A DNA stretch of 45,121 bases. Source: Chloroflexota bacterium. Its GTDB lineage: Bacteria > Chloroflexota > Anaerolineae > DTLA01. This document shows, in pieces, positions 4,674-35,750 of this stretch. The stretch lies in NCBI GenBank assembly GCA_014874485.1, contig JADBJK010000012.1, positions 1 to 45,121 of the forward strand. Direction: 5' to 3'. Each line of letters opens with the position of its first letter. The stretch's first letter is position 1. The translations under genes were made by a program, and so were the position numbers. The notes beneath the pieces are model-generated. The model saw nothing but the letters and a program-made list of their open reading frames with translations. It ran no database searches and was not told where the DNA came from.

Positions 4674-4689
4674 CTTCTCCCTCCCATCC

Positions 4690-4731: not shown

Positions 4732-4741
4732 AGTTGGTGCG

Positions 4742-6611: not shown

Positions 6612-6667
6612 GACCAATTCCTCCTAGTTGTGTTATGTCAAATATCCGAAGTTCCGAAGCAATTCTA

Positions 6668-6787: not shown

Positions 6788-6809
6788 ACCACCCACCGAC
6801 AGCGCCGAA

Positions 6810-7697
6810 TCAACGTACAGCCGCTTCCACCGATGGTTGGGCGCGGCGCGTGGCCACTTCCAGCGCCTGGGCCACCATCTCCGGAATCAGGGCCAGGCGA
6901 TACTCGCGCGATGCCCGCGCCGGGCTGGTGCGCGGATTGCAGTCGCCGGTGATGATGCAGCCCGCCTCGGCGAACGCGGCGGCGTCGGGCGTCTTCCCGC
7001 GCAGGAATGCCTCCGCGTCCCTCGCGCGGTACGGTGTCGGCGCGACCGGCCCCAACGCGATGACGGCCTCCGCGACGGTGCCGTCCTCGTGCAGGCGCAG
7101 GCTCACGCCGCAATTGAGCGTGGGCAGCACCAGCGACTCGCGGCGGCCCGCCCGTGTCCACGCGCTCCCCCACAGGCCCGACGGCACGCGGAAGCGGATG
7201 TGGGTGATCACCTGGCGGCATGGATTCACCGCCGACACCCCCGGCCGCACGAATAGCGTCTCCACGGGCTTCCACCGCGCACCCTCTGCGTCCGCGATGC
7301 GGGCCTCGGCCTGCAGAGCCAGCGCGGCGATAGCGCCATCGGCGGCGGGCATCGCCTGCACGATGTTGCCCGCCCACGTGGCCGCGGTCTGGATGGGCAG
7401 CGCCCCCACCGAGCGCGCCGCTTCGGCCAGCACGTGCACGCGCTGCGCGATGAACGGGTGCCGGTGGATTTCGGCGAAGGTTACCGCCGCACCAACCTGC
7501 ACCCACTCGCCCTCCACCGAAATCGCCCGCAATTCCGGAATGCGCGTGATGTCCACCAGGCAGCGCGGCGCGATTCTCCCCTTGTGCATGTCCACCATCA
7601 CATCGGTACCGCCCGCCATGATGCGCGCCTCGCCCCCGTGCTCCTCCAGAATCTCCAGGGCTTCCTCAACCGATGCGGCCATGCGGTAGTGCGTCAT
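6810..7697 (-). CDS. FAD-binding subunit of a xanthine-dehydrogenase-family molybdenum hydroxylase
   Basis: A 295-residue medium (CoxM-type) subunit that carries electrons through FAD from the 2Fe-2S centres. The two FAD-pyrophosphate motifs are visible: IMAGGTDVM (about residues 26-34) and TWAGNIVQAMPAADGA (about 106-121). The ATG follows AAGGAGGGCTACG and overlaps the stop of the Mo/2Fe-2S gene by four bases (ATGA), so translation is likely coupled. It is the last gene of the long ABC-hut-mttB operon. Length is normal for the family. The substrate is not shown by this subunit. Confidence 0.92.
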   Translation of the reverse strand: MTHYRMAASVEEALEILEEHGGEARIMAGGTDVMVDMHKGRIAPRCLVDITRIPELRAISVEGEWVQVGAAVTFAEIHRHPFIAQRVHVLAEAARSVGALPIQTAATWAGNIVQAMPAADGAIAALALQAEARIADAEGARWKPVETLFVRPGVSAVNPCRQVITHIRFRVPSGLWGSAWTRAGRRESLVLPTLNCGVSLRLHEDGTVAEAVIALGPVAPTPYRARDAEAFLRGKTPDAAAFAEAGCIITGDCNPRTSPARASREYRLALIPEMVAQALEVATRRAQPSVEAAVR

Positions 7698-10453: not shown

Positions 10454-10459
10454 GGTCGC

Positions 10460-11917: not shown

Positions 11918-11956
11918 TTGAACCCTCTTTTCCTTCGTATCAGAGTATGCGCCGCT

Positions 11957-14793: not shown

Positions 14794-14801
14794 AGTCCGT
14801 C

Positions 14802-15815
14802 TCACGGCATCCTGTCGGGGGCGGGGTCGAGCGGGCGCATGGCAATGGCCCCGGTCGGGCAGGAGTTGGCGCACAGCCCGCAGCCCCAGCACTTGGCGGG
14901 GTCAAACTGCACGTTGCGCAGGGCGATGCCTTTGCGGGTAACTTCTGCGCCATCGTGGTAGAACGCCCCGAAATGGCATCGTTTCACGCAAAGCCCGCAG
15001 AAAGAGCACGCATCGCGGTCGTAGGCTGCCACGTAGCGGCTGCGGGGCCAGACCCCCTTGCTGCCGATTTCGCGGGCGGCGTTGAACGGGTAGCAATCGC
15101 ACGCGCAGCAGTTGCAGATGGGCGACAGGCCGTGCGTCCGCCATTCGCTGTCGCCCGTGTGCATCAGGCCCTTCCGGTCGGCATGGCGCACCAGGGCCTT
15201 CGCCTCGCCGACGGTCAACCGCCGGCCGTGCCCCCTGTCCAACGCCTCGCGCGCCGACTTGTCCAGCCAGATGCACGTCTCCACCGGGCGGTCGCAGTTC
15301 TGGCCCAGGCGGCGGCAGTCGCACGGCTGAACCACGATGTCGGTGGCCGCGTCCAGCATCTCCTCCACCTCGTGCAGAAGGAGCACGTCGTTGTTGTGAA
15401 GCCCTTCCGCCGAGGGCGCGCCCGCCATCAACTGCTCCACCTTGGGCCGCACATGCGCGATGTACTCGTCCAGGTAGCGCCGATTGATGGCCTTGCGGGC
15501 CTCGGGCGGGATGTCGTCCCAGTTCTCAAACTTGGCGAAGACGTCCAGGCGGGAGTAGAAATCGGCCGCCGCGTAGGTCACAGCGTCGCCATCGCCCGAC
15601 CGGTTCACGATTCCCCGACGGTAGGCACGCTCAAGCAGGGCGCGCGCCTGCTCCTCGGGCAGCGCCAGTCGGCGGGCCACCTCGGCGGCGGTGAGCGCCT
15701 CGCCGTCCATCGCCACCACCAGCGCCATCTCCGCCTCGTCCACCATCATGGACAGGTAGGGCCGTGCCGGCTCCCAAACGTCAAAGATGCGGATGAATTC
15801 CTCTACAAGCGCCAT
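14802..15815 (-). CDS. Cysteine-rich 4Fe-4S ferredoxin with winged-helix N-terminus
   Basis: A 337-residue iron-sulfur protein. The frame is open upstream into the CBS gene, but the ATG at 15815 with GGGGA upstream is the sensible start. The N-terminal ~100 residues are helical and resemble a winged helix (LTAAEVARRLALPEEQARAL, split by family usage). Then come two cysteine groups, CDC...C....C (about residues 155-175) and CNCCACDC, and a C-terminal two-cluster ferredoxin: CSFCGLCVKRC and CWGCGLCANSC. That is 17 clustered cysteines, enough for more than two 4Fe-4S centres. It lies between the CBS-ACT gene and methylaspartate ammonia-lyase. A role as electron donor for corrinoid reactivation or for the lyase pathway is an inference. 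Cytoplasmic, no signal peptide. Confidence 0.8.
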   Translation of the reverse strand: MALVEEFIRIFDVWEPARPYLSMMVDEAEMALVVAMDGEALTAAEVARRLALPEEQARALLERAYRRGIVNRSGDGDAVTYAAADFYSRLDVFAKFENWDDIPPEARKAINRRYLDEYIAHVRPKVEQLMAGAPSAEGLHNNDVLLLHEVEEMLDAATDIVVQPCDCRRLGQNCDRPVETCIWLDKSAREALDRGHGRRLTVGEAKALVRHADRKGLMHTGDSEWRTHGLSPICNCCACDCYPFNAAREIGSKGVWPRSRYVAAYDRDACSFCGLCVKRCHFGAFYHDGAEVTRKGIALRNVQFDPAKCWGCGLCANSCPTGAIAMRPLDPAPDRMP

Positions 15816-15835
15816 GATGCCGTCCCCGGTGCGGG

Positions 15836-16489
15836 CTAGGTTTCCCGTATGTCCACAATCTGCTGGCCTTCCACCTGCGACAGGGCCGCAGCCACCTGTT
15901 CCTTCGCAACGTAGCGAATCTTGACCACCGCGTCCCACTTGCCGGGCTCGCGCGGGGCGGGCGCGCCACCCAGGGCCAGGATGCCCCACCCCTGCGCGGC
16001 GATGGCCCCCACCAGTTTCGCCAGTTCCCCGCGCACGTCGGGCATGCGCACCGTAACGCGCACCGCGGGCGTGGTGGCCGCCATCATCTGCATCAGGTGC
16101 GCCATCATGTCCACGTCGGTCAGGATTCCCACGACGAACTCGCCTTCCAGCACGGGCAGGCAGCCTACCTTGCGCTCCACCATCACACGGGCGGCGTCCT
16201 CTATCGTCGCGTCGGGGTGAATCGTGATCACGTCCCGCGCCTTGATCATCACGTCCCGCACGGTGAGCCCCGACAGGTAGCGGGCGATCTCCCACACGTC
16301 CAGGCTGCTCAGGCGGCGCGGGTCCACCAGCAGCGAACTCCGCGTAACCAGCCCCAGCAGCCGCTTGCCCTCGCCGACGACCGGCAGGTGGCGGATGCTG
16401 TTCTCGCCCATCAGCCGCTGAGCCTCCACGATGGACATGGACGGCTCGGCCAAAAACGGGTGGCGGGTCATGTAATCCTTGACTAACAT
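15836..16489 (-). CDS. CBS-domain pair with C-terminal ACT-like domain
   Basis: A 217-residue protein with two CBS domains (about residues 5-60, starting LVKDYMTRHP, and 78-135, starting TVRDVMIKARD) and a C-terminal ACT-like domain (about 142-215). The layout recalls AcuB-like proteins. CBS pairs bind adenosine nucleotides or S-adenosylmethionine; ACT domains bind amino acids. Together they suggest a small ligand-sensing regulator of a neighbouring enzyme, not a DNA-binding protein. AAGGAGG lies five bases before the ATG. It sits between hutH and the ferredoxin gene in the same operon. Confidence 0.82.
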   Translation of the reverse strand: MLVKDYMTRHPFLAEPSMSIVEAQRLMGENSIRHLPVVGEGKRLLGLVTRSSLLVDPRRLSSLDVWEIARYLSGLTVRDVMIKARDVITIHPDATIEDAARVMVERKVGCLPVLEGEFVVGILTDVDMMAHLMQMMAATTPAVRVTVRMPDVRGELAKLVGAIAAQGWGILALGGAPAPREPGKWDAVVKIRYVAKEQVAAALSQVEGQQIVDIRET

Positions 16490-16507
16490 GCGCCTCCTTC
16501 CGCAGGA

Positions 16508-18085
16508 CTAGCCCCTGCCCTCCAGGGCCTCCTCCACTGCCCTGGCCAACGCGCCGCTTGCCACGAGCGCGACAACCGATTCTATGTACGGGTACATCAC
16601 GTCATCCCGCTCCAGGAACGGGACATGCCGACGAATCAGCGCATAGGCGGCCTGAGTGCCCTTGCCCAACCGCGCCGACGGGCCCAGAACATCGCGGCGG
16701 AAGTCAATCCCCTGCGCCGCCGCCATCAGTTCCAGCGCCAGAATCCGCTCCACGTTGGCGGCGATTCGCCGCGCGTGCCGTGCCGCCGTCGGCCCCATGC
16801 TCACGTGGTCCTCTATGTTCGCCGACGTGGGGATGGTGTCCGCGCTGGCCGGATGGGCCAGGACTTTGTTTTCCGACGCCAGCGCCGCCGCCGTGTACTG
16901 CGTCAGCATGAAGCCGGAGTTCAGCCCGCCCTCGCGGGTCAGGAACGCGGGCAGCGTCTCCGCGTTGCTGGACTCATCGGTGAGGCGCGCCAGCCGCCGC
17001 TCGGAGATGTTGCCCAGTTCGGTCAGCGCCAGGCTCAGGTAGTCCATGGCGATGGCCAGCGGCTCGCCGTGGAAGTTCCCGCCCGAAAGCACCGTCGCCT
17101 CGCCCGTGGCCTCGTCAAAGAAGATAAGCGGGTTGTCCGTCGCCGAGTTGAGTTCTATGCTCAGCACCCAACGGGCATAGGCGATGGCGTCGCGCACCGC
17201 GCCGTGCACCTGCGGGATGCACCGCAGGGTATAGGCGTCCTGGACGTTCAGCGGGTCGTCGGGGCGGGTGAACGTGCTGCCCTCAATCAGGCGGCGCAGG
17301 TAGGCGGCGCACTCCACCTGGCGGGGGTGCGGCCTCACGGCGTGGATGCGCGCGTCAAAGGCCCGCGGCGTCCCGTAGGTGGCCTCCAGGGTCAGGCACC
17401 CCGCGATGTCGGCCACGCGCGACAGGTTCTCCGCCTGCCACGTGGTCAGCGCCCCGATGGCGGCCATGAGCGCCGTGCCGTTGGTCAGGGCCAGGCCTTC
17501 CTTCGCCTCCAGCGTCGCAGGCTGAAGCCCGGCGCGCGCCAGGGCCTCGGCCCCAGGCAGCCGCTCGCCCTGGTACACCGCCTCGCCCAGGCCGATGATG
17601 GGCAGCGCCATGTGCGCCAGGGGAGCCAAATCCCCGCTGGCCCCCAGCGACCCCTGCGACGGCACCACCGGATGCACGCCGCGGTTCAGCATGTCCAGCA
17701 GCAGTTGCAGCGTCTCCAGGCGGATGCCCGAATGCCCCTTGGCGAGGGCGTTGGCGCGGATGAGCATCATGGCGCGGACCGTCGGCTCGTCCAACGGCTC
17801 GCCCACCCCCACCGCGTGGCTCATGAGGATGTTGCGCTGGAGTTGGCGAACCTGGTCGGGCGGGATGATGCGCCCCTTGAACGCCCCGAACCCCGTGGTA
17901 ACGCCGTACACCACCTCGCCGCGGGCGATGAACTCCTGCACTGCCCGTTCGGCCCGCCGTACCCGCGCGCGGCTTTCCTCGGACAACGTAACTTCTATGT
18001 GCTCGCCCCTGGAAGGCGCGTAGGCCACCGCCACCACGTCTTCCAGGGTGAGGCTATTTCCGTCAATCACCAGCCGAGAACTCAC
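16508..18085 (-). CDS. hutH: Histidine ammonia-lyase
   Basis: A 525-residue MIO-containing lyase that converts L-histidine to trans-urocanate and ammonia. The self-cyclising Ala-Ser-Gly triad is in GSLGASGDLAPLAH (residues 149-151 from the start used), and the catalytic tyrosine is in VVYGVTTGFGAF (Y60). The frame is open to 18154, but the GTG at 18085 begins VSSRLVIDGNSLTLEDVV, which fits the family N-terminus, and has GGAG nine bases upstream. It follows hutU after 136 bases that hold a strong hairpin. HutI and later enzymes are absent from the window. Related aromatic ammonia-lyases act on other amino acids, so a methylated histidine cannot be excluded. Confidence 0.93.
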   Translation of the reverse strand: MSSRLVIDGNSLTLEDVVAVAYAPSRGEHIEVTLSEESRARVRRAERAVQEFIARGEVVYGVTTGFGAFKGRIIPPDQVRQLQRNILMSHAVGVGEPLDEPTVRAMMLIRANALAKGHSGIRLETLQLLLDMLNRGVHPVVPSQGSLGASGDLAPLAHMALPIIGLGEAVYQGERLPGAEALARAGLQPATLEAKEGLALTNGTALMAAIGALTTWQAENLSRVADIAGCLTLEATYGTPRAFDARIHAVRPHPRQVECAAYLRRLIEGSTFTRPDDPLNVQDAYTLRCIPQVHGAVRDAIAYARWVLSIELNSATDNPLIFFDEATGEATVLSGGNFHGEPLAIAMDYLSLALTELGNISERRLARLTDESSNAETLPAFLTREGGLNSGFMLTQYTAAALASENKVLAHPASADTIPTSANIEDHVSMGPTAARHARRIAANVERILALELMAAAQGIDFRRDVLGPSARLGKGTQAAYALIRRHVPFLERDDVMYPYIESVVALVASGALARAVEEALEGRG

Positions 18086-18162
18086 GGCCAAACGCTCCAC
18101 CGTTATGTGTACTTCTGGATTCGGTTCTGTCCCTTGTCGGTGAACTACCCGCACATTCTCTT

Positions 18163-18197
18163 CAAGTGCGACGCACCTGCGAGGTGCGTCGCACTTG
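18163..18197. repeat. Strong hairpin (GTGCGACGCACC family) between hutU and hutH
   Basis: A perfect inverted repeat with 16-bp arms (CAAGTGCGACGCACCT and its complement) around a GCG loop. Relatives occur at 30452-30488, 39370-39402 and, in part, 44930-44960, so it is a dispersed repeat. In the hut transcript it would fold into a very stable stem after hutU and could lower or separate expression of hutH and later genes. Confidence 0.8.
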
Positions 18198-18221
18198 ACT
18201 GGTACCGCTCCGCAGTTATGT

Positions 18222-19871
18222 CTACTTCAGCATGGGAATCTTGATGCCGCGCTCTTTGGCCACCTGGATGGCGCGCTCGTATCCGGCGTCCGCATGGCGC
18301 ACCACGCCCATGCCCGGGTCGGTGGTGAGCACGCGCTCCAGCCGCCGAGCGGCTTCGGGCGTGCCGTCGGCCACGATGACCATCCCCGCGTGCTGGCTGT
18401 AGCCGATGCCCACGCCGCCGCCGTGATGGAAACTCACCCACGTCGCGCCGTTCACCGCATTGATGAGCGCGTTGAGGATGGCCCAGTCCGAGATGGCGTC
18501 GGAGCCGTCCTTCATCCCCTCGGTCTCGCGGCGCGGCGACGCCACCGAGCCGGCGTCCAGGTGGTCGCGCCCGATGACGATGGGCGCCTTCACCCGGCCG
18601 CTCGCCACCAGGTCGTTGAACGCCAGGCCGGCCTTGGCGCGCTCGCCGTACCCCAGCCAGCAGATGCGCGACGGCAGCCCCTGGAACTTGACCTTCTTCT
18701 GCGCCATCTTGATCCACCGCACCAGGTGCTCGTCGTGCGGGAACAGGTCCATGATGACCTGGTCGGTTACGTAGATGTCTCCCGGATCGCCCGAAAGCGC
18801 CACCCAGCGGAACGGCCCCTTGCCCTCGCAGAACAGCGGGCGGATGTACAGCGGCACGAATCCCTGGAAGTCAAAGGCGTTCTTTACGCCCATGTCGTAG
18901 GCGCGCTGGCGGATGTTGTTGCCGTAGTCAAAGACTACGCTCCCCTTCTTCTGGAAGTCCAGCATGGCCTGCACGTGGGCCGCCATGGATTCCATCGCGC
19001 GGCGCTTGAACTCCTCCGGGTCGCGCTCGCGGAGGGCCTTGGCCTCCTCAAAGGTCATCCCGCGCGGGAAGTAGCGCAGTGGGTCGTGGGCGCTCGTCTG
19101 GTCGGTTACCACGTCGGGCACGACGCCGCGCTCCACCAGTTCGGGCAGCACCTCCGCGGCGTTGCCGATGAGGCCCACCGAAAGCGGCTGCTCGGCCCTG
19201 ACGGCCTCCTCAACCCACGTCATTGCCTCCTCTATGTTCTCGGCGATGCGGTCCAGGTAGCCGGTGCGGAGCCGCCGCTCGGCGCGCCATCGGTCAATCT
19301 CCACCACCAGCGCCACGCCCTCGTTCATGGTAACCGCCAGAGGTTGTGCGCCGCCCATCTCGCCCAGGCCCGCGGTCAGGACAAACTTGCCCTTCAGGCT
19401 CGGCCAGCCCTGGGCCTTGGCGCAGGCGGCCAGGGTCTCATACGTGCCCTGGAGAATGCCCTGCGTGCCGATGTAAATCCAACTGCCCGCCGTCATCTGC
19501 CCGTACATGATGAGGCCCTTGCGCTCCAGTTCGTCAAAGTAGTCCTGCGTGGCCCAGGCGGGCACCAGGTTGGAGTTGGCGATGAGGACGCGCGGGGCGT
19601 CGGGGTGGGTCTTGAACACGGCGACGGGCTTGCCGCTCTGGACCAGGAGCGTCTCGTCGGGTTCCAGGTTGCGCAAACTCTCCAGAATCGCGTCAAAGCA
19701 CTCCCAGTTGCGCGCCGCCTTGCCGCTCCCCCCGTACACGATGAGGTTATCGGGGTCAAAGGCCACGTCGGGGTCCAGGTTGTGCTGAATCATGCGGTAA
19801 GCAGCTTCAATGAGCCAGTTCTTGCAGGTCAATTGAGTACCCGTAGGCGGATGAATCACTCGCTTGGCCAT
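18222..19871 (-). CDS. hutU: Urocanate hydratase
   Basis: A 549-residue NAD+-dependent urocanase that hydrates urocanate to 4-imidazolone-5-propionate. Family segments: [17 protein letters not shown] near the N-terminus, [18 protein letters not shown] (in part), [13 protein letters not shown] for nucleotide binding, and [14 protein letters not shown]. The C-terminus has [19 protein letters not shown]. Length is normal. The ATG at 19871 is preceded by GAGGGAG; a TTG two codons earlier is less likely. It starts 12 bases after the ABC ATPase stop, so it is co-transcribed with the transporter. That link suggests the imported compound is histidine-related. Confidence 0.96.
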
Positions 19872-19883
19872 ATCCAACTCCCT

Positions 19884-24423: not shown

Positions 24424-26145
24424 CTAGGCCTCCGGGTCGTACCAAGCGTTGTACAGGATGTCGTAGTTGGTCGGGTGCGCGCCCACGTTCTTGAACTTCT
24501 TGTTGGCAATGTACCAGACATTGGTCCAGAACGCAATTCCGACCGAGCCGCGCTCCATCTGGATGTCCTCCAGTTTGCACATGATGGCGCGGCGCTTCTC
24601 CACATCCAGCGTCCGCTCGGCTTCCTTGAGCAGCGTGGTGAACTCGGGATCCACCCAGTAGGTCTCGTTCCAGGGCACGGGCTTGCCGGTGTCGTCGGCG
24701 GTGTAGGCTAGCGCCAGCACCATGGTGCCCAGCGGGCGGTGCGCCCAGATGGTGATGCCCAGCGGGACCTCGGTCCAGATGTCCCAGTACTGCGCCGACG
24801 GCAGGATGTTGAGTTTGATGTCAAACCCGCCCGCGGCAGCCGACTCACGCAGGGCCTGCGCCATGGCCGGTTCGGCGCGCGCCTGCTGCGTGGACAGTTC
24901 CACCGACAGGCCATTGGGGTAGCCGGCCTCGGCCAGCAGTTTCTTGGCCCCTTCCGGATCGTAGGGCGGGATGTCCTTCGGGCAGTACTCGGGGTGAATC
25001 GGCGCGACGTGCGCGTCGTGGCCCAGGACGCCCTCGCCGAACCAGGCCAGGTCCAGCATCTTCTGGCGGTCAATGCACTTCTTGAGCGCCAGGCGCACCC
25101 GATTGTCGTTCCAGGGCTCCTTGTCCACACGCATGCGGATGACGAAGGTCTGGGCTGTGGCCGTGGAGTACACCTTGACGGTGGGCAGGTCCTTCACCGC
25201 CTGCCAGATTTCCGCGGACGGGTTGAAGATGTTGTCCACCTGGCCGCTCTGCATGGCCGCGATGCGGGCCGCGTCGTCCTGGCCCAGGTCCAGGTACACC
25301 AGTTTGTCCAGGTACGGGTAGGGCTTGCCGTCGTCGGCCATCAGCCAGTAGTCCTCGCGGCGGCGGAACACGGCGCGCTCGGTCTCGCGGAACTCCTCCA
25401 GCAGGAACGGCCCCGTGCCGATGGGCTGCTTCGTGATGTCGCCCTCAAAGGTGCGCGGGACGATCATCGCGGGATAGTGGAACAGGTGCTCGGGCACGGC
25501 GATCTGCGGCGAGTCCAGGTGCAGTTTGATGGTGTAATCGTCCACCTTCTCAATGCCGGTCGGCTGGAGGTAACTCAGCAGGCCCAGCATGGACGAGCCC
25601 ACGTCCTTGTCCAGCCACTGCTGGAAGTTGAAGATGACGTCATCGGCGGTCAGTTCCTGGCCGTTGTTGAACTTGATGCCCTTGCGGATGTACAGCGTCC
25701 ACTCCTTGACCTCGGCGTCGGCCTCCCACTTCTCCAGCAGCCAGGGGTGCGTGATGTTGTCATAGTCGGTATAGGTCAGGTACTCGCAGACCTGGCGGAA
25801 CTGGTTCACGCCTTCAATCCACGACAGGCGGGCGGGATGGTCCACGCGGGGCACGCGGGTTGCGATGGTCATGGTGCCACCGCGCTTGGGGCCGGCCGGC
25901 TTCGGGGTCGCGGTCGGCGGAACGGGTGTCGGCTGTACGGCGGGTGGATTCGTGGGTGCGGTGGTCGGGGTCGCTTTGGTGCCGCATGCGGACAGGAAAG
26001 CGGTCGCACTGGCCAGGGACATGCCCAGCAACGTGGCGTTGCGAAGGAACTCGCGTCGGGTGATCCGCCCCTTCTTGTAGAGTTCCTTCAACTCGGGGAT
26101 GTACGGGTGCTCGTGCTGGTTCTCATCCTTCTTGATGATCTCCAT
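24424..26145 (-). CDS. ABC transporter substrate-binding protein (family 5, Tat-type lipoprotein)
   Basis: A 573-residue extracytoplasmic solute-binding protein of the DppA/OppA family. The N-terminal tail carries a twin-arginine-like signal (TRREFLRNATLLG) followed by a hydrophobic stretch and a lipobox ending LSAC, then a Pro/Thr-rich linker, as expected for a cell-surface lipoprotein. The body has family segments such as GIKFNNGQELTADDVIFNF and PIGTGPFLLEEF. The ATG at 26145 follows GAGGAGGAG; earlier in-frame starts lack this. First gene of the ABC-hut-mttB operon, read from a consensus promoter 250 bases upstream. The ligand is not evident; methylated amino acids or small peptides are candidates. 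Confidence 0.93.
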   Translation of the reverse strand: MEIIKKDENQHEHPYIPELKELYKKGRITRREFLRNATLLGMSLASATAFLSACGTKATPTTAPTNPPAVQPTPVPPTATPKPAGPKRGGTMTIATRVPRVDHPARLSWIEGVNQFRQVCEYLTYTDYDNITHPWLLEKWEADAEVKEWTLYIRKGIKFNNGQELTADDVIFNFQQWLDKDVGSSMLGLLSYLQPTGIEKVDDYTIKLHLDSPQIAVPEHLFHYPAMIVPRTFEGDITKQPIGTGPFLLEEFRETERAVFRRREDYWLMADDGKPYPYLDKLVYLDLGQDDAARIAAMQSGQVDNIFNPSAEIWQAVKDLPTVKVYSTATAQTFVIRMRVDKEPWNDNRVRLALKKCIDRQKMLDLAWFGEGVLGHDAHVAPIHPEYCPKDIPPYDPEGAKKLLAEAGYPNGLSVELSTQQARAEPAMAQALRESAAAGGFDIKLNILPSAQYWDIWTEVPLGITIWAHRPLGTMVLALAYTADDTGKPVPWNETYWVDPEFTTLLKEAERTLDVEKRRAIMCKLEDIQMERGSVGIAFWTNVWYIANKKFKNVGAHPTNYDILYNAWYDPEA

Positions 26146-26390
26146 CGGATACTCCTCCTCTTGTGTAGAGAATCTGCCCACTCACGTGGGGTTCGGAAAC
26201 CTCCTTTGGCTCCGAAATCCGAGTCATCGCAGGAATCTGTCCGAGAGCACCTCCTTTCTACCCGCTGATGGGGATGTGAAACCGGGATGTCTTCGGCTAC
26301 GCTATGAGAGTGGTCCCTAGGATTGCCGCCTCATTCCGTTGCCTGCCTGTCCGCAGTCCGCCGACGGAGATATGGAACGGGCAGTTCTGA
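26146..26390 (-). other. Long 5' leader of the ABC operon
   Basis: About 245 bases separate the predicted transcription start from the binding-protein ATG. The leader RNA has two AAAGGAGG tracts with no obvious gene behind them (complements at 26251-26258 and 26200-26207), and a small hairpin CCCAC-GUGA-GUGGG with a GNRA-type loop (26177-26190). I do not recognise a known riboswitch; in particular no B12-box was seen. It might allow translational control of the operon. Confidence 0.45.
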
Positions 26391-27405: not shown

Positions 27406-28845
27406 CTACTCCAGCCAAATGCGGAACTCGCGGCGGATGGCCGCGTCCACATCCACAGGCCATGCGGGCGGCTGATGCGCCGCCAGAACCGCCGCCACCC
27501 GCTCGCACGCCCGCGCGCGGGCATCCCGCTTGCCGTCCTCCTCCCACATGGCGCGGGTCTGGCGGTCGGCCACGCGCGGGTAGAAGAACTCCCGCCGCAT
27601 GTGCCGCACCGTGTGCGCGTCCATGAGGTAGTGCCCGCCAGGCCCCACCCGACCGATGGCCTCCTGCGCCATCGTCTCCTCGGTTATGTCAATCCCACGC
27701 AGCACCCGCATCGCCATGCCCACGATCTCGTCGTCCATCACGGCCTGCTCCATGGAGACCGCGCTCATGTTGGTAACCATGCCGATGGCGTGGTGGATGT
27801 AGTTGCACCCGCCCATGGCCGCCAGCAGGAACGTCGCCATCTTCTCGTAGCCCGCCTGGGCGTCGGGAATCTTGGCGTCGCTCATCCCGCCGGAGCCGTA
27901 GATGGGCACCCCGTAGAAGTGCGCCAACTGCGCGGCCGCCGCCTGCATCATCCCGAACTCCACGGCCCCGCCCAGGTATCCGCCGGTCTTCATGTCGGCC
28001 ACGCCGGGGATGTACCCCGCGAGAACCGGCGTGCCGGGCCGCGCCAACTGGGTGAGCACGATGCCGCTCAACTGCTCCGCGTTCAGTTGCACCAGCGTCC
28101 CGGCCAGCGTTACCGGCGACGTGGAGCCGGCCATGGGCGCCGACGACAGCGCCACCGGAAGCCCGTGCCCGCACCATTCCAGCAGGATGTCCGTAACCTC
28201 GGTGTCCAGGCGCAGCGGGCTGACCATCCAACTGGTGATGGCCGAAATAAAAGGGCGCGCCCGCAGGCGGTCTTCTCCACCCGCCAGGAGCGCGCCCAGA
28301 CGAATCACCTGCCGCGCGCCCGCCACCGAATCCACGCCGCCCATGACGTGCTTGCCCGTGTTGCGCAGGCAGGTGTAGAATCGGTTGACCGGCACGTCTT
28401 CTCTCGGTACGTCCGTGGGGTACAGGGGCGCGACCACGAAGTCGCAGTGCGCCAGCGCGTCCGCCAGCCGCGCCATCATCGCCAGGTCCTGCAGCGTGCC
28501 GGGGCGCGGCGTGTCGGCCCCGGCGTCCAGAATCATGGTGGGCGAGCCGCCCGTGCCCGCGTACACGCGCCGGCCCTCCAGCACGATGTCGTCCGCCTCC
28601 GACCGCCCGGCCAGCAGCACCCGGTGCGGCACGGTCTTCAGCGCGGCCTGCACCATGGCGGGCGGGATGCGCACCCGATGGCCGTCCACCAATGCGCCGC
28701 CCTCGCGGTACAAGCGCAGCGCCGTCTCGTTCTCCACCAGGACGCCCGTCGTCTCCAGGACCGCCAGCGAGGCCCGGTGAATCTCCCGCACCTGCTCATC
28801 GGTCAGCGGACGATACTGCCCGCCCTCAGGACCCGGACGCGCCAT
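27406..28845 (-). CDS. MttB-family (COG5598) methyltransferase, divergent paralogue 5
   Basis: A 479-residue MttB-superfamily protein, the most divergent of the six. The N-terminus (EIHRASLAVLETTGVLVENE) and overall length fit the family. However the GxGSDC motif reads GTGGSPTMILD, TTKPIVFV is replaced by NTGKHVMGGVD, and the HDVGY segment found in the other five reads NYIHHAIGMVTN. The pocket segment is GYIPGVADMKTGG. No amber codon in frame. It starts 13 bases after mttB6 and is the last gene of the corrinoid operon. It may use another methyl donor, or have a structural or binding role. Confidence 0.85.
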   Translation of the reverse strand: MARPGPEGGQYRPLTDEQVREIHRASLAVLETTGVLVENETALRLYREGGALVDGHRVRIPPAMVQAALKTVPHRVLLAGRSEADDIVLEGRRVYAGTGGSPTMILDAGADTPRPGTLQDLAMMARLADALAHCDFVVAPLYPTDVPREDVPVNRFYTCLRNTGKHVMGGVDSVAGARQVIRLGALLAGGEDRLRARPFISAITSWMVSPLRLDTEVTDILLEWCGHGLPVALSSAPMAGSTSPVTLAGTLVQLNAEQLSGIVLTQLARPGTPVLAGYIPGVADMKTGGYLGGAVEFGMMQAAAAQLAHFYGVPIYGSGGMSDAKIPDAQAGYEKMATFLLAAMGGCNYIHHAIGMVTNMSAVSMEQAVMDDEIVGMAMRVLRGIDITEETMAQEAIGRVGPGGHYLMDAHTVRHMRREFFYPRVADRQTRAMWEEDGKRDARARACERVAAVLAAHQPPAWPVDVDAAIRREFRIWLE

Positions 28846-28858
28846 GCCTTGCCCCCTG

Positions 28859-30304
28859 TTATTTGCCCGCGCGACGCCGCAGCACGGCCCTGATCTCCTC
28901 CTCCGCCGCCTCGGGCAGCGGCGGGACGTCGTGCTCGGCCAGGATGCGGCGCGCCCGTTCGTTGGCGCGGGCCGCCATGTCCTTGGCGCCCCTCTCGGCC
29001 CACTCGTCGTAGCGCGAGCGGTCCATCACGCGAGGGCGGAACTGCGCCCACTTCCAGTTGCGCAGCGTGTGCTCGTCGGCCAGGAACCCGCCGCCGGGCG
29101 TCGCCCGATGGATGGCCTCCCGCGCCAGAGTCCGCTCGCTCACCTCCACGCCGTTCATAATGAACCGAACGTCGCGGATGATCTCGTCGGCGATGACCAG
29201 CATCTCCATGGACGACGTGGAGCCGTACTCAATGTACCCCACGTCGTGCACCAGGTTGCAGCGGGTCAGGAAAGCCGTCATGATGCTGATGGCGGCTTCC
29301 AGGCCCGCCTGGGCGTCCACCACCTTGCTATCGGTGGCCCCCGCCGCGCCCCACACCGGCAGACCGTAGTACCGCGCGATGTCGCACCAGGCCGCCATGC
29401 CCGTGGGCCACTCGGGCGCGCCGTAACTCACGATGGCCGAGCGCATGTCCAGCGCCGCCGTGTTCATCCCGTACAGGAACGGCGTCCCGGGGCGCACCAA
29501 CTGCGTGAGCACAAGCCCCACCAGGCACTCGGCGTTGCCCAGCGCCAGCGCCCCCGCCAGCGTGATCGGCCCACCGCCGCCCGTGTTCGGCGAGGGCGGG
29601 TACGTTACCGGAATCCCCTTCTCGGCGCAGAACAGCAACTTGTCCACCGACTCGTCGGGGTACAGCAGGGGCGAGATGGATTCGGCGTACAGCATGAGGA
29701 AGGGCCGCTCGCGCAGGCGCTGCTCGCTGCCCGCCACGGCGCACGCGATGCGGTAGATGTCCTCCATGTCGCCCCGATGGTTGGCCGTGTACACGTTGGG
29801 CTTGACCGACCCGCGGATCATGCCGACAAACCCGTGGATGTACACATCCATCGGCGGGACGTCCGACGGGTTGCTCATGGACATGACGAAATCCATCTCG
29901 TCCAGGCCATCGGTCAGGCGTGCGATGCGGTACACGTCGTCGTAGGTGGCCTTGCGCCGCCGGCCGGTCTCCACGTCAATCGTGAACACGCAGTCGGAGC
30001 CGCTGCCGAAAAACACGTTCCCGCCTTCCAGCGGCATGGTCAGTTCGCCCAGGCGGTTGTACATGGGGATGCGCGACGGGGCCGACCCGATAGCCGACAT
30101 CACCAGGTGTTCCGGTATCTTGATGCGGCCGTCGGATTCCCAGGCCCCGGCGTCCAGAAGCAAGCGCCGCGCCTTCTCGTTCTTCATGACGATGCCGGTG
30201 CGGGACAGGATGTCCAGGCTGGTGTTGTGAATCGCCTGTATCTGCTCGTCCGACAGCATGCGGATGGTGGGGTGCAGCGTTTCAATCGGTACCTGTTCGG
30301 ACAC
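28859..30304 (-). CDS. MttB-family (COG5598) methyltransferase, non-pyrrolysine, paralogue 6
   Basis: A 481-residue MttB homologue in the same operon as the corrinoid protein. The frame is open 19 codons further upstream, but the GTG at 30304 lies six bases after GAGGAG and gives the usual N-terminus (IQAIHNTSLDILSRTGIV). Motifs: GSGSDCVFTID, SPLLYPDESVDKLLFCAEKG, GMNTAALDMRS and NLVHDVGYIEYG. No amber codon. It begins 227 bases after the corrinoid-protein stop, a gap that holds a dispersed hairpin repeat. It is the best candidate for the main substrate methyltransferase of this operon. Confidence 0.9.
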   Translation of the reverse strand: MSEQVPIETLHPTIRMLSDEQIQAIHNTSLDILSRTGIVMKNEKARRLLLDAGAWESDGRIKIPEHLVMSAIGSAPSRIPMYNRLGELTMPLEGGNVFFGSGSDCVFTIDVETGRRRKATYDDVYRIARLTDGLDEMDFVMSMSNPSDVPPMDVYIHGFVGMIRGSVKPNVYTANHRGDMEDIYRIACAVAGSEQRLRERPFLMLYAESISPLLYPDESVDKLLFCAEKGIPVTYPPSPNTGGGGPITLAGALALGNAECLVGLVLTQLVRPGTPFLYGMNTAALDMRSAIVSYGAPEWPTGMAAWCDIARYYGLPVWGAAGATDSKVVDAQAGLEAAISIMTAFLTRCNLVHDVGYIEYGSTSSMEMLVIADEIIRDVRFIMNGVEVSERTLAREAIHRATPGGGFLADEHTLRNWKWAQFRPRVMDRSRYDEWAERGAKDMAARANERARRILAEHDVPPLPEAAEEEIRAVLRRRAGK

Positions 30305-30530
30305 AGGACACTCCTCAATATATAGTTTGACCACCGAGTTGCGTACTCGTAAGCCGGGCATCCTGCCCGACCGAACGTGGCCAGGCCACGGAACCCGCGC
30401 GAGCGGCAGCCCGTCCTCGCCCGCGCCGATTCGCGTCCAATCGCGGCAGATTCAGGTGCGACGCACCCGCGAGATGCGCCGCACCTGACCACACTCTCCA
30501 ACAGACTTTGGAGCCGAGCGCAGTTCCCGC
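30305..30530. other. Gap between corrinoid-protein and mttB6 genes
   Basis: Holds an imperfect inverted repeat (30452-30488, arms TCAGGTGCG...CGCACCTGA) of the GTGCGACGCACC family and an AT-rich CTATATATT segment (about 30317-30325) just before mttB6. The AT-rich part could be a -10 region on the minus strand, but I find no good -35 box. Otherwise nothing recognisable. Confidence 0.5.
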
Positions 30531-31163
30531 CTACGCCAACTTGCGGGCCACGTCCACGGCGGTAGCCGCGTCGGGCGCGTAGGCGTCGGCCCCGATCTGC
30601 TGGGCGAAGGCCGCCGTAACGGGCGCGCCGCCCACCATGATCTTGACCGAATCGCGCAGGCCCGCCTCTTGCAGCGCGTCAATGGTGGACTTCATGTTCA
30701 CCATCGTCGTCGTCAGCAGGGCGCTCATGCCCACGATGCGCGGCTTGTGCTCCTGCACGGCCCGCACGAAGGCCTCGGGCGCTACGTCCGTGCCCAGGTC
30801 CACCGTCTCAAACCCCGCGCCTTCCAGCATCATCTTCACCAGGTTCTTGCCGATGTCGTGCAGGTCGCCCTTCACCGTGCCGATGACGTACTTGCCCACC
30901 GTCGGCGAATCGCTTGCCGCCAGCAGCGGGCGCAGGACGTTCATCCCCGCGTGCATGGCGCGGGCCGCGATGAGCACCTCGGGCACGAACAGGTCGCCGG
31001 CCTTGAAATCCTTGCCCACCTGGTCCATGCCGGCGATGAGGCCGTCCTGGAGGATTTCCTTCGGCGTCAGGCCCGAATCCAGCGCCTGCTGCACCAGTTC
31101 GGCGACCTCTTCGTCCTCGCCCTCGTACAGTTTGCTCGCGATCTTCTGTAGAATGTCTGCCAT
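30531..31163 (-). CDS. Corrinoid (cobalamin-binding) methyl carrier protein, MttC/MtbC family
   Basis: A 210-residue carrier that cycles between Co(I) and methyl-Co(III). The N-terminal ~90 residues are the four-helix cap (LVQQALDSGLTPKEILQDGL in outline); the Rossmann-like B12 domain follows, with the cobalt-coordinating motif D100-x-H102-x-x-G105 in GDLHDIGKN and a C-terminal VGGAPVT. AAAGGAGG lies nine bases before the ATG. It is the only corrinoid protein in the window, so all six MttB homologues may have to share it or use carriers elsewhere. Placed between the ASKHA ATPase and mttB6. Confidence 0.96.
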   Translation of the reverse strand: MADILQKIASKLYEGEDEEVAELVQQALDSGLTPKEILQDGLIAGMDQVGKDFKAGDLFVPEVLIAARAMHAGMNVLRPLLAASDSPTVGKYVIGTVKGDLHDIGKNLVKMMLEGAGFETVDLGTDVAPEAFVRAVQEHKPRIVGMSALLTTTMVNMKSTIDALQEAGLRDSVKIMVGGAPVTAAFAQQIGADAYAPDAATAVDVARKLA

Positions 31164-31206: not shown

Positions 31207-33222
31207 TCACCGCGCCGGACTTGGCCGCCCGGCAGCCGTGAACGTAAGTTCCGTGCAAAGGTAGATTTCCTGTCCCCATCCCGCCTGGGCCACGGCGACG
31301 CGGTCTTCGCGCGCCACGTGCACCTCCACGTGTGCCGCGCCCGCCCGACGCACCGCCGCCTCCAGCACTGCGGGAACCGTCCGCTCGGCGTAGGCGACCG
31401 CGTCCTCCACGGTGGGGAAATCGCGCACGCCATCGGGCAGGTGCGCCCGAAACGCCTCGCCCCCCGGCAGCGGCTGCACCATGACGCGCCACCGCTGGAC
31501 AACCCCGCCCGCGACCGCGCCGACCGCATTGGCCACGTCCGCGTGCCGCGGGATGATCAGGTCCGTGTGCAGGAGTTCGGCCACGCGGGGCATGTACGCT
31601 TCCGCCGGCGCGCCGATGCCCACGACCGGCTCGCGCAGGTAGAGCCGGCAGCCCAGGCTGGAGTCCCCGTCGTTGCCCGCGGCCCGCGCGAACAGGGCGT
31701 CCACCGCGGGGGCCGTCCAGTCCACGGCGATGCCCTCGTCGCCCATGACCTTCGCCACCAGTTCCCGCGCGACCCGTTCGGACACCTCGGCCACCACCCG
31801 CTCGCAGAACGCCTCGGGGCTGCACCCCAGCCGCGCCGCGAGAATCCGCGCACCCGCCAGCGACGCCCGCCCGTCCCAGCGGCGGAACCGCCCCAGCGCG
31901 TGGAGCGCGTCAGTCGGTGTGAACCCGGCCCGCATGACCAGGCGCATCGCTTCCAGCCGCTCCAGCCGCCGCAGCGCCACCAGCGGGTACGCCCCCTCGC
32001 GGAGCAGCGCGGTCAGCGGCCTCGGCCCGCGCTCCAGGCTCCGCAGCAGCGACGCCTCCTCGTCCGACAGCGCGTTCCCTGCCCGCCCGTGCGCCAGGGC
32101 AAACTGCCCAACCCACGGCTCCTCGCGGTCGGCCGCCGCGTCGCGCTCCAATTCGGCCAGGACTTCCGGGTGTTGCGACGCCAGCAGGCACAGCGGCACC
32201 ACGCGGCCCGGCCCGATGTGCAGCCGCCGCTCGCCGTCCAGGCGCACCAGACTGTCGCCGCCCAGGCCCGTCGTGCGGACGTCCACGGCTTCCACCATCG
32301 TCTGCCACTGGCCCACGCGCGCGCCTTCGGGGTTCAGGTGCGGGCGACCGCCGCGCAGCGCAGCGATGTCGGTCGTCGTGCCGCCCACGTCCACCACCCA
32401 CACGTCCTGGCGGCCCGCCAGATGCCACGCGCCCACCGCGCTGGCCGCCGGGCCCGACAGAATCGTCTCCACCGGGCGGCGCATGGCCCACTCGGCGCGC
32501 ACCAGCGACCCGTCGCCCTTCACCACCATCAGCGGCGCGGAAACCCCGTGCTCCGCCAGCGTCCGCTGCACCGTCGCGATGAGGTCCTGCAGCAGGGGGA
32601 TGAGCCGCGCGTTCAGCGCCGCCGTCGTCGCCCGCCGCACGGCGTTCAGCCGCACCGACAGTTCGTGCCCGCAGGTTACGGGCAGCGGACGGCCATCCTC
32701 CGACGCCCGCGCCGTCATCCCCTCAATGATGGCCCGCGCCCGCAGTTCGTGCGTCGGGTTGCGCGCCGCGAAGTAGCCCGACACGGCGAAGGCCGCCACC
32801 CGCCCGATGCGCGACGCGACCGCCTCGCGCAGGGCCTCCTCATCCAGCGGCTCCACCTCGTCGCCCACGGCGTTGTGCCCGCCCCGCACGTACACCACGT
32901 CAGGCGTTACCAGCGCGCCCTCAAACCCGAACTCGCGCATCAGGTCGCGGTCGTAGCCGATGAGGACTAGGCACACGGGGCTGCCCTGCCCCTCCACGAT
33001 GGCGTTGGTGGCCAGCGTCGTGGACAGGGCGACCAGGCTCACGTCCGAGGGCGAGGCCGTCCCCGAACCCAGCACCGCCGAAATCGCCTCGCCGATGCCG
33101 ATGGCCAGGTCCCAGCGGGTGGTCAGCGCCTTGGCCGAATGGAGCACCTCGCCCGTGTCCTCGCGCACCAGCACGGCGTCGGTGTACGTCCCGCCCGTGT
33201 CAATGCCCAGCGCGATGGTCAT
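31207..33222 (-). CDS. Hydantoinase/oxoprolinase (HyuA-like) ASKHA ATPase, possible corrinoid reactivator
   Basis: A 671-residue HyuA-family protein with ASKHA ATPase signatures: IALGIDTGGTYTDAVLV at the N-terminus and VWVVDVGGTTTDIAALRGG mid-chain, plus GPAASAVGAWHLAG. The ATG at 33222 overlaps the stop of the MetH-like gene by four bases. Known relatives open hydantoin or oxoproline rings using ATP, usually with a HyuB partner, which is missing here. Other ASKHA proteins (RACo) use ATP to re-reduce Co(II) corrinoids. Lacking HyuB and embedded in a corrinoid operon, this protein is more likely an activator than a hydantoinase; that is an inference. It has no N-terminal 2Fe-2S domain as RACo has. 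Confidence 0.85.
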   Translation of the reverse strand: MTIALGIDTGGTYTDAVLVREDTGEVLHSAKALTTRWDLAIGIGEAISAVLGSGTASPSDVSLVALSTTLATNAIVEGQGSPVCLVLIGYDRDLMREFGFEGALVTPDVVYVRGGHNAVGDEVEPLDEEALREAVASRIGRVAAFAVSGYFAARNPTHELRARAIIEGMTARASEDGRPLPVTCGHELSVRLNAVRRATTAALNARLIPLLQDLIATVQRTLAEHGVSAPLMVVKGDGSLVRAEWAMRRPVETILSGPAASAVGAWHLAGRQDVWVVDVGGTTTDIAALRGGRPHLNPEGARVGQWQTMVEAVDVRTTGLGGDSLVRLDGERRLHIGPGRVVPLCLLASQHPEVLAELERDAAADREEPWVGQFALAHGRAGNALSDEEASLLRSLERGPRPLTALLREGAYPLVALRRLERLEAMRLVMRAGFTPTDALHALGRFRRWDGRASLAGARILAARLGCSPEAFCERVVAEVSERVARELVAKVMGDEGIAVDWTAPAVDALFARAAGNDGDSSLGCRLYLREPVVGIGAPAEAYMPRVAELLHTDLIIPRHADVANAVGAVAGGVVQRWRVMVQPLPGGEAFRAHLPDGVRDFPTVEDAVAYAERTVPAVLEAAVRRAGAAHVEVHVAREDRVAVAQAGWGQEIYLCTELTFTAAGRPSPAR

Positions 33223-33926
33223 TCGGCGTCCTCCCGCCTGCGCCAGCAGGTGTCGGCCAGGGAGCAATAGCGGCACAGCGCGCCCACGTGCGCCGACGCG
33301 AACCCAGGCCCGCTGCCAATGAGCGCCGAACACGACTTGAACGGCCGCAGGATGTTGTAGGGCGTCAGGGTTACGCCCACCGAATCCAGCGGCAGGAGCG
33401 CGCACAACTCGCGCTGCCCGTCCACCGGCCACCCTGCCAGCGACCCTGGGCTGAGCGCGGGCGACACGCCCCAGTGCTCTACCGCCGCACGCTCCTCGGC
33501 GATCCGCCGCACCGCCTCGCCCACCGCCCCCAGGACGAGCACCCCCGCCGTGTCCAGCATGTAGGACAGCAGGGCGTCTCCCCCCTGGTACAGTTCGGTG
33601 GCCCGCGCCTCCAGGTCAGGCCCGATGGTCCACACGGCCACGAAGGCGCGGCGCGCCTCGCGCAGAAGCGAGACCCCGTGTCCCATCTTCAGGCTGCGCG
33701 TGCCGTCGGCGGTGTGCAGGGTCAGCATCTCATCTGACACGCCCGCGACCGCAAACTCGTCCCAGACCGCCGCGGGGCGCGCCAAATCCAGCGCCATAGC
33801 CGCGGCCTGCTCAGCCGCCTGGCGTGCCATGGCGCTCTGGGGCGCGCGGCGACCTTTGCGCACCTGGGACTCCAGGATTGCGTCGGCGGTCAGCGTGATG
33901 GGAATGTCGCGCACGACGGTGGGCAT
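33219..33926 (-). CDS. MetH reactivation-domain-like protein with C-terminal Cys motif
   Basis: A 235-residue protein related to the S-adenosylmethionine-binding activation domain of B12-dependent methionine synthase. The telling segment is SPGSLAGWPVDGQRELCALL followed by SVGVTLTPYNILRPFKSCSALIG, which matches the MetH order (SPGY...W...Q / GVTLT...M.P.KS.SALIG). The C-terminus has CRYCSLADTC, three cysteines that could bind a metal or cluster, not part of MetH itself. ATG follows GAGGAAG. In MetH this domain lets SAM and an electron re-methylate inactive cobalt; here it may dock on the corrinoid protein during reactivation. It is translationally coupled to the ASKHA ATPase gene. Confidence 0.85.
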   Translation of the reverse strand: MPTVVRDIPITLTADAILESQVRKGRRAPQSAMARQAAEQAAAMALDLARPAAVWDEFAVAGVSDEMLTLHTADGTRSLKMGHGVSLLREARRAFVAVWTIGPDLEARATELYQGGDALLSYMLDTAGVLVLGAVGEAVRRIAEERAAVEHWGVSPALSPGSLAGWPVDGQRELCALLPLDSVGVTLTPYNILRPFKSCSALIGSGPGFASAHVGALCRYCSLADTCWRRREDAE

Positions 33927-33957: not shown

Positions 33958-34830
33958 CTACTTGGCCTGCGCGGCCTTCAGGCGCTTCTTGTAGTCCTTC
34001 AGGTAGCGCATGGCGTACTCATCGCGGCCCAACAGCAGGTCGGTCGCCAAGACGGCGGGCCGCACCTTCGCCACGTCCACAATCGGGCAGTTCACGCCGC
34101 GCTGAATGGCCATGGCGAGGAACGCCCAGTTGATGGTCTCGCGCTCGGGCAGGCCAAAGGAGACGTTGCTGGCCCCCAGGGTCATGTTCACGCCCAACTC
34201 CTCGCGCACCATGCGGATGGCGTCCAGCGTAACGAGGCCCGCGCGCGAATCGGCCCCCACGGTCAGCGCCAGGCAGTCAATGACCACGTCCTCGCGGGGG
34301 ATGCCCATGGCCTCGGCGCGCTCCACGATGCGACGGGCGACGGCCAGGCGGCCTTCCGCCGTGGGCGGGATGCCCTGCTCGTCCATCGCCAGGCCGATGA
34401 CCGCCGTGTGGAACTCGGCGACCAGGGGCAGGACGCGCTCCATGCTGGCCGCCTCGCCGTTGACCGAGTTGACCAGCGGCTTGCCGTTGGGGACCAACTC
34501 GCGGTACAGGGCGAGGGCGGCGCGCAGGGCGTTGGGGTTGGCGCTGTCCACGCACAGGGGAACGTCCACCGTCTCGGCCACCAGTTTCACGGCCTTGGGC
34601 AGCAAGTCCACCTCGTCAATGCCGGCGGCACCCACGTTAACATCCAGCACGTCGGCGCCGGCTTCCACCTGCGCTTCGGCCTCCTGGCGCACGATGTCCA
34701 GGTTGCCCTCGGCCAGCGCGGCAGCCAGGCGCTTCTTGCCGGTGGGGTTGATGCGCTCGCCGATGAGGACCGTCGGCTTGTCCGGGCCGATGACGACGGT
34801 TTTGCGGGCACTCCTCAGAACAGTCTCCAT
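33958..34830 (-). CDS. Methyltetrahydrofolate:corrinoid protein methyltransferase (MtrH/MtgA/AcsE-type)
   Basis: A 290-residue pterin-binding TIM-barrel enzyme that exchanges a methyl group between a methyl-corrinoid protein and tetrahydrofolate. Family segments in order: LIGERINPTGKK, ADVLDVNVGAAG, LCVDSANPNAL, KPLVNSVNGE and GASNVSFGLPERETIN. Length is typical of DhaS/MtgA/AcsE MeTr proteins. AGGAG lies six bases or so before the ATG. Transcribed right after the IclR gene and ahead of the activation genes. Together with MttB proteins it completes a three-component demethylase route into the C1-folate pool. Confidence 0.95.
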   Translation of the reverse strand: METVLRSARKTVVIGPDKPTVLIGERINPTGKKRLAAALAEGNLDIVRQEAEAQVEAGADVLDVNVGAAGIDEVDLLPKAVKLVAETVDVPLCVDSANPNALRAALALYRELVPNGKPLVNSVNGEAASMERVLPLVAEFHTAVIGLAMDEQGIPPTAEGRLAVARRIVERAEAMGIPREDVVIDCLALTVGADSRAGLVTLDAIRMVREELGVNMTLGASNVSFGLPERETINWAFLAMAIQRGVNCPIVDVAKVRPAVLATDLLLGRDEYAMRYLKDYKKRLKAAQAK

Positions 34831-34870: not shown

Positions 34871-35659
34871 TCAAGGGGACCCGACGCCCGGTCTATACCC
34901 CAGCTCAGCAGAGATTTTGCCGCAGGTCTCCACCAGCAACGTCGCCAGGTGCGGGAACAGGGCAGGCGGAATGCGGAACGCCGGCCCTGCCAGACTCGCC
35001 GCGGCGCGCACCGCACCCGTGTGGTCGTAGATGGGCGCGGCCAGGGCGTTCAGGCCGTCCTCCAACTCCTCCTCCGCGGTGGCGTACCCCTGGGCGCGCA
35101 CGCGCTCCAGTTCTTCGCGCAGGCGGTCAGGGTCGGTGATGGTGCGGGGGGTCAGGCGCTCCAGCCGCGACTGCAGGAACCGCTCCAGTTTGTCCGGTGG
35201 CAGATGGGCCAGCAGCACCTTGCCCGCCGCCGTGCAGTGGGGCGGCATCCGTCGGCCCACCCAGCCGATGTTCTTGACGCTTCGCACGGGCGGCGCGAAC
35301 TGCTCCAGGTCCATCACCTGGCCTTCGTGCAGGATGGCGAGGTTCACCGTCTCTTGGCAACGTTCGGAAAGGTCGCGCAGGTGGGGACGGGCGATCTCGC
35401 GCACGTCCATGTGCTCCACCACCTGCGCCGCGAGGACGATCAGGTCCAGCCCCAGGCGATACCGTTCGGTCTCGGGGTTGCGGGCCACCAGGCCGTGGCG
35501 CTCCAGCGTCGCCAGAAGGCGGTACACGGTGCTCTTGTGGATGCCGAGTTCGCGGGCGAGTTCGCTCACGCCGCGCTCGGGCCGTTCGCGGGAGAAGGAG
35601 CGCAGGATTGCGACCGCCCGCTCCACGGATTGCACGCTGGGGTCTCGGCGGTTGGCCAT
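34871..35659 (-). CDS. IclR-family transcriptional regulator
   Basis: A 262-residue regulator with an N-terminal winged helix (SVERAVAILRSFSRERPERG then SELARELGIHKSTVYRLLATLERHGLV in outline, residues 10-60) and a C-terminal GAF-like effector domain (CTAAGKVLLAHLPPDKLERFL region). The ATG at 35659 follows AAGGA and fits the family start; the frame is open 27 codons further upstream but crosses the predicted promoter. It is the first gene of the corrinoid operon, 40 bases before the MtrH-type gene, so it probably controls its own operon through the dyad at 35685-35721. Confidence 0.93.
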   Translation of the reverse strand: MANRRDPSVQSVERAVAILRSFSRERPERGVSELARELGIHKSTVYRLLATLERHGLVARNPETERYRLGLDLIVLAAQVVEHMDVREIARPHLRDLSERCQETVNLAILHEGQVMDLEQFAPPVRSVKNIGWVGRRMPPHCTAAGKVLLAHLPPDKLERFLQSRLERLTPRTITDPDRLREELERVRAQGYATAEEELEDGLNALAAPIYDHTGAVRAAASLAGPAFRIPPALFPHLATLLVETCGKISAELGYRPGVGSP

Positions 35660-35684
35660 TGGGACCGTCCTTGCTGGGCCGCAT

Positions 35685-35721
35685 GTTGCGCAATGCGGCA
35701 CGCCGTTACACGTCGCGCAAC
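35685..35721. promoter_or_regulatory. Inverted-repeat operator candidate of the IclR operon
   Basis: GTTGCGC (35685-35691) and GCGCAAC (35715-35721) form a 7-bp inverted repeat separated by 23 bases, directly downstream of the -10 box. The left arm lies in the self-complementary TTGCGCAA. The position over the transcription start suits autorepression by the IclR protein. Confidence 0.6.
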
Positions 35722-35722
35722 G

Positions 35723-35750
35723 ATTATACGCGCCCCGCACGCGCTGTCAA
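35723..35750 (-). promoter_or_regulatory. Promoter of the iclR-corrinoid operon
   Basis: On the minus strand TTGACA (35750-35745), a 16-base GC-rich spacer and TATAAT (35728-35723). The IclR ATG is 64 bases beyond the -10 box. A good match to the sigma70 consensus. Confidence 0.8.

Follow-up and report, generated by a model that had tools for sequence, protein, structure and literature searches.

A HyuA-subfamily ATPase (P0001) and a small protein that is a detached MetH-type activation domain by homology and fold (P0002) are encoded by two overlapping genes inside an operon for corrinoid-dependent methyl transfer. They lie in a Chloroflexota DNA stretch of 45,121 nucleotides, called here the window. 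That both proteins are linked to corrinoid methyl transfer is well supported. The pair could form an ATP-dependent module that reactivates or maintains the corrinoid protein of MttB-type methyl transfer; this reading is preferred because it is the most economical one, and its chances are about even. Methanogenesis, acetogenesis and the aerobic breakdown of betaine are fed by corrinoid methyltransferases, every one of which needs its cobalt to be re-reduced. The HyuA-subfamily ATPase is probably a hitherto missing component of the apparatus by which these systems keep their B12 cofactor active and, if this is true, many genes now called hydantoinase would be re-annotated.

The operon and its surroundings contain the following features:
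24424..26181, minus strand: extracellular solute-binding protein of a dipeptide/oligopeptide-type ABC transporter (PF00496)
27406..28845, minus strand: second MttB-superfamily methyltransferase (PF06253, E 6e-114)
28859..30361, minus strand: MttB-superfamily methyltransferase, a continuous ORF (PF06253, E 1e-97)
30531..31163, minus strand: MttC/MtgC-type corrinoid protein P0004 (B12-binding_2, B12-binding, TIGR02370)
31207..33222, minus strand: HyuA-subfamily ASKHA ATPase P0001, 671 aa (Pfam Hydant_A_N and Hydantoinase_A)
33219..33222, minus strand: ATGA stop/start overlap of four bases between the P0002 and HyuA (P0001) genes
33219..33926, minus strand: stand-alone MetH-activation-domain-like protein P0002, 235 aa, with a C-terminal CxxCx5C (profile and fold)
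33958..34830, minus strand: methyl-THF:corrinoid methyltransferase (MeTr) P0003 (NF005719, Pterin_bind)
34871..35740, minus strand: IclR-family regulator at the operon head (PF01614, PF09339)

The genes follow each other in a tight run on the minus strand, in the order IclR, MeTr, P0002, HyuA, corrinoid protein, MttB, MttB, and all three parts of the three-component MttB/MttC/MeTr methyl transfer are present. The ORF coordinates agree with the original prediction on the four-base overlap of the pair and on its position between MeTr and the corrinoid protein. MeTr reaches 275 bits with NF005719 (cut-off 259) and falls slightly below the cut-off of MtrH (PF02007), while P0004 reaches 226.8 bits with TIGR02370 (cut-off 215.3). 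The MttB at 28859..30361 has no in-frame stop and is of the non-pyrrolysine type. In a genus-level relative (L025), the gene order from MeTr to MttB is the same and a PF00496 solute-binding protein gene also lies downstream of MttB. The P0002/HyuA arrangement is not due to chance, since it is found again in the relatives L025, L028 and L033.

P0001 matches Hydant_A_N (PF05378; 127 bits, E 7e-37, cut-off 25) and Hydantoinase_A (PF01968; 109 bits, E 3e-31, cut-off 23). Its AF2 model (pLDDT 92.5) matches over its full length the acetone carboxylase beta subunit, acetophenone carboxylase, caprolactamase and N-methylhydantoinase (NMHase), the Z scores with HyuA-type proteins ranging from 20 to 31 over more than 500 residues. 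The phosphate motifs DTGGTYTD and DVGGTTTD are both intact. DTGGTYTD, GGH and GLGGDS make up a subfamily signature that is missing from the genuine hydantoinase A of Ca. Formimonas warabiya, which has DIGGTFTD and GAGGGS instead. P0001 belongs to a distinct HyuA subfamily that comes without HyuB. A tree of 119 homologues, rooted on HyuA adjoining HyuB (an outgroup on a long branch), places members of this subfamily in Chloroflexota, Bacillota, Methanomassiliicoccales, Desulfobacterales and Proteobacteria.

The claim that this HyuA has no HyuB partner holds. HyuB (PF02538) was not found in the window's genome, and a search beside hyuA in relatives, where a hyuB gene would have spoken against a corrinoid role, detected a HyuB-type ORF in 0 of about 129 related loci. 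This search works, since the same profile detects a genuine HyuA-HyuB pair in DCMF (Ca. Formimonas warabiya). Among 45 genomes with a subfamily HyuA, 22 have a HyuB elsewhere.

P0002 itself has no match in Pfam or NCBIfam and does not reach the gathering score of PF02965. A search with the single sequence gave a weak match to TM0269 (1J6R; E 0.027), while a profile built from seven sequences reached 1J6R at E 9e-9 and also touched MetH C-termini. The AF2 model (pLDDT 81.7) superimposes on 1J6R with a Z of 17.7 (rmsd 2.8 over 190 residues) and on MetH activation domains with a Z of 13-16, the next fold being at about 5. Furthermore, homologues from Sporomusa ovata (27.9) and Smithella (31.1) pass the PF02965 cut-off of 25. 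On account of these profile and fold matches and of these homologues, P0002 is a detached MetH-type activation domain, and the resemblance to this domain that had been noticed from the sequence is thus borne out. The Cys-rich end that had also been reported is indeed present: the protein terminates in ...CRYCSLADTCWRRREDAE. The three cysteines of this tail (Cys 218, 221 and 227, CxxCx5C) are invariant in an alignment of P0002 homologues (40/40); the tail is disordered in the AF2 model (pLDDT <50) and may carry a metal or an Fe-S cluster.

TM0269, which serves MetH, is comparable to P0002 as a detached activation domain of the same fold. Unlike TM0269, P0002 lacks the AdoMet motif, bears a CxxCx5C tail and is encoded in an MttB operon, in a genome devoid of full-length MetH. 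RxPGY, the AdoMet-binding motif of MetH (R1134...Y1139 in E. coli), is not kept in the aligned P0002 homologues (Arg in 5/40, Tyr in 0/40), whose conserved positions include the xPG loop and a P-x-K-S-x-S stretch. An activator of MetH itself was also considered; it is unlikely, no full-length MetH being found in the window's genome (95.7% complete).

Co-occurrence, a check proposed in the original prediction, was studied in 199 genomes of the window's class and in 240 alphaproteobacterial genomes, and HyuA tracks MttB in both classes. In the alphaproteobacteria, MttB is present in 15/15 genomes with HyuA vs 36/225 without it (p 1e-11, ignoring kinship; still 3e-10 after removal of two genomes already known to have HyuA). 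In the window's class, MttB is found in 38/46 genomes with HyuA vs 69/153 without it (p 4e-6), and a P0002-like gene in 32/46 vs 22/153 (p 3e-12), both values again ignoring kinship. The neighbourhoods point in the same direction. A corrinoid-system gene (corrinoid protein, MeTr, MttB, RACo or UroD-type gene, within 10 kb) accompanies HyuA in 26/56 loci of the window's class vs 1/20 control windows, and directly adjoins it on the same strand in 17 of these 56 loci. Over the whole tree, such clustering is seen for 39/119 HyuA homologues, about two thirds being non-clustered. No shared substrate gene was found near the non-clustered HyuA genes, whose commonest neighbour encodes an OpuAC glycine-betaine binding protein (6/65). 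An OpuAC-type gene of this kind precedes non-clustered HyuA in several Chloroflexota (L078, L081, L101, L172, L177 and L183).

P0002-like genes are not always paired with HyuA. Among 43 that were examined, 7 lie near HyuA alone, 9 near RACo alone, 1 near both and 26 near neither; a universal P0002-HyuA pairing is therefore rejected, as it concerns a minority of loci only. The homologues near RACo are often 4 bp away from it, and the four RACo neighbours that were scanned all have Fer2 as well as the middle and C-terminal domains. One kind of small protein thus goes with two different ATPases and, since its homologues pair with RACo elsewhere as P0002 does with HyuA here, the pair is tied to corrinoid reactivation. 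In L034, L036, L037 and L039, 4 to 69 bp separate the P0002-like gene from RACo, and MeTr and a corrinoid protein are often encoded there too; the papers that were found do not discuss such a MetH-activation-like partner of RACo.

The known reactivators RACo, RamA and RACE (DUF4445, PF14574 ASKHA) are, like P0001, ASKHA-fold ATPases encoded with a corrinoid protein and methyltransferases, and RACo is accompanied by P0002-like proteins in the nine loci mentioned above. Unlike them, P0001 is a HyuA relative in which Pfam detects none of the RACo_C_ter, Raco_middle, Fer2 and ferredoxin domains, and it often coexists with RACo or RamA. No PF14574 ASKHA domain with an N-terminal 2Fe-2S or a C-terminal ferredoxin was found by Pfam in P0001 or P0002. 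An Fe-S motif is also absent from P0001, whose fold is that of hydantoinase/carboxylase A subunits, not that of RACo. No protein fusing P0002 to an ATPase was found among the ORFs scanned.

It should be noted that the absence of RamA and RACo, as initially reported, is true of the operon but not of the genome, in which another contig (C91) holds two RACo genes (L064 and L065; PF14574, E 8.5e-106 and 5e-77). One of the two adjoins a CODH/ACS-type methyltransferase gene and probably serves that pathway alone; near the other, there is no corrinoid-system gene. RACo or RamA is also present in 14/15 alphaproteobacteria with HyuA, where HyuA is therefore an addition and not a substitute, and HyuA lies directly downstream of RACo/RamA in several loci (L144, L105 and L145). 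The proposal that HyuA stands in for a missing RamA or RACo is thus weakened, and strict replacement is rejected, owing to the two genomic RACo genes and to the frequent coexistence of HyuA with RACo/RamA. HyuA seems to be an ATPase component that is added to RACo/RamA, more than one that strictly replaces them.

In Phaeobacter, a RamA-like protein and a DUF1638 protein were genetically implicated in B12 reactivation (Price et al. 2018, PMC5764234). This situation is comparable to that of the window, with an ATPase, a small accessory protein and split corrinoid methyltransferases, and HyuA is operonic with both in the Lysobacterales locus L144, a single run of corrinoid protein, DUF1638, MeTr, RamA-like and HyuA genes in which HyuA starts 2 bp past the RamA-like gene. 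The window differs in that its accessory protein is a MetH-activation homologue and its ATPase is of HyuA type.

Relatives of P0001 are also found in published clusters. The glycine-betaine cluster of DCMF encodes MtgC, MtgB, MtgC, MtgB, an 'Unknown' protein of 668 aa, MtgA and MtgB; the 'Unknown' is more abundant on glycine betaine (log2 change -7.20), and the text names one cluster gene N-methylhydantoinase A/oxoprolinase (Holland et al. 2022, PMC9768040, Table 2). This order was found in L237, where the fifth gene encodes a HyuA-subfamily protein of 668 aa with 39% identity to P0001. Ca. Formimonas warabiya has at least two copies of the subfamily (L130 and L237), of which the L237 copy alone lies in the betaine cluster; L130, initially taken for the published gene, is a paralogue. 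Some 9 kb downstream of the L237 cluster, there is also a RACo gene. The HydA protein of the Sporomusa cluster (38% identity) belongs to the same subfamily and, like P0001 and the DCMF protein, is encoded beside MttB, a corrinoid protein and MTII; no function was proposed for these proteins (PMC9768040). The S. ovata cluster (L124) comprises MeTr, a P0002-like gene, glycine-reductase-type genes, a corrinoid protein, two MttB, HyuA and a BCCT transporter. Unlike in the window, its P0002-like gene is 7 kb from HyuA, with no overlap. In the literature searched, no paper was found linking B12-enzyme reactivases and hydantoinases. A conserved ATPase that accompanies MttB in every HyuA-bearing alphaproteobacterium of the sample, shares operons with known reactivators and is strongly induced on glycine betaine marks a gap, open to direct testing, in a pathway of wide use.

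In the proposed mechanism, P0002 would dock on the corrinoid domain, as its homology and fold suggest. As the AdoMet motif has been lost, it probably does not remethylate cobalt with AdoMet; an electron could instead reach cob(II)alamin via a metal or Fe-S cluster held by the CxxCx5C tail. The HyuA-subfamily ATPase, working without HyuB, would couple ATP binding or hydrolysis to the corrinoid step, either by driving the low-potential reduction of Co(II) to Co(I) as RACo and RamA do, or by an opening or refolding of the corrinoid protein that would allow its re-reduction. Across the tree, HyuA would usually act in addition to RACo/RamA, with coupling to P0002-like proteins in certain lineages and to RACo/RamA elsewhere. 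More generally, and with chances somewhat below even, the HyuA-derived subfamily could be a widespread core component of bacterial and archaeal corrinoid methyl transfer which, with a detached MetH-activation protein, would form a reactivation system distinct from both RamA/RACo and MetH/AdoMet.

Several points count against such a module: the absence of an Fe-S motif from HyuA and its hydantoinase/carboxylase-type fold, the small share of P0002-like genes near HyuA alone, the large share of non-clustered HyuA homologues, the co-occurrence statistics that ignore kinship and the disorder of the Cys tail in the model. In addition, HyuA is not sufficient or not equivalent, because most alphaproteobacteria in which it occurs also have RACo/RamA, and the two genomic RACo could reactivate the corrinoid protein of the window in trans. 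It is conceivable, if rather unlikely, that P0002 and a RACo acting in trans carry out reactivation while HyuA plays another ATP-dependent role, such as loading the cofactor, exchanging damaged corrinoid or repairing the protein, as ASKHA chaperones do for B12 enzymes. The P0002 homologues near RACo and the coexistence of HyuA with RACo/RamA would fit this, as would the N-terminal similarity of P0001 to proteins of MutL/GlmL type and the diol-dehydratase reactivase among its structural matches. However, such similarities to MutL and diol-dehydratase reactivase are common to the ASKHA fold at large, the translational coupling of P0002 is with HyuA and not with RACo, here and in relatives, and one genomic RACo probably serves the CODH/ACS-type pathway.

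The fold and family that P0001 shares with the HyuA of ATP-dependent hydantoinase, caprolactamase and acetone carboxylase, including ATP motifs, would also suit a catabolic enzyme, an amide, lactam or hydantoin ring opener or a carboxylase acting on the demethylated substrate or on hydantoin-5-propionate from the histidine pathway of the window, where hutH, hutU and a xanthine-dehydrogenase-like enzyme are encoded. Solved HyuA relatives work with a HyuB-type or a further subunit, whereas HyuB is missing here from the genome and from the surroundings of relatives. The motifs of the subfamily differ from those of genuine hydantoinase A, and its neighbours (MttB, UroD/MtaA-type and glycine-betaine genes) share no common ring substrate, so that a catabolic role is improbable. 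P0002 could also behave like the activation domain of MetH, binding AdoMet and methylating cob(II)alamin reductively with flavodoxin or ferredoxin, HyuA being incidental. Its fold, its xPG loop and its P-x-K-S-x-S stretch are in line with this, but the loss of RxPGY makes it highly improbable.

The remainder of the window also carries genes related to methyl transfer. Four more MttB-superfamily genes are found on the minus strand (3222-4673, 5181-6617, 10460-11917 and 11957-13738), together with methylaspartate ammonia-lyase (13393-14892), hutH (16508-18154), hutU (18222-19877) and the xanthine-dehydrogenase-like gene. The region from 3222 to 19877 perhaps encodes a pathway for methylated histidine (hercynine, for example) in which MttB would carry out the demethylation. 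Between the MttB/methylaspartate lyase genes and hutH, a minus-strand ORF (14802-16295), whose first 160 residues or so are probably not coding, encodes in its C-terminal part a helix-turn-helix-like region followed by a 2x[4Fe-4S] ferredoxin domain, and its product is a possible electron donor for corrinoid reduction.
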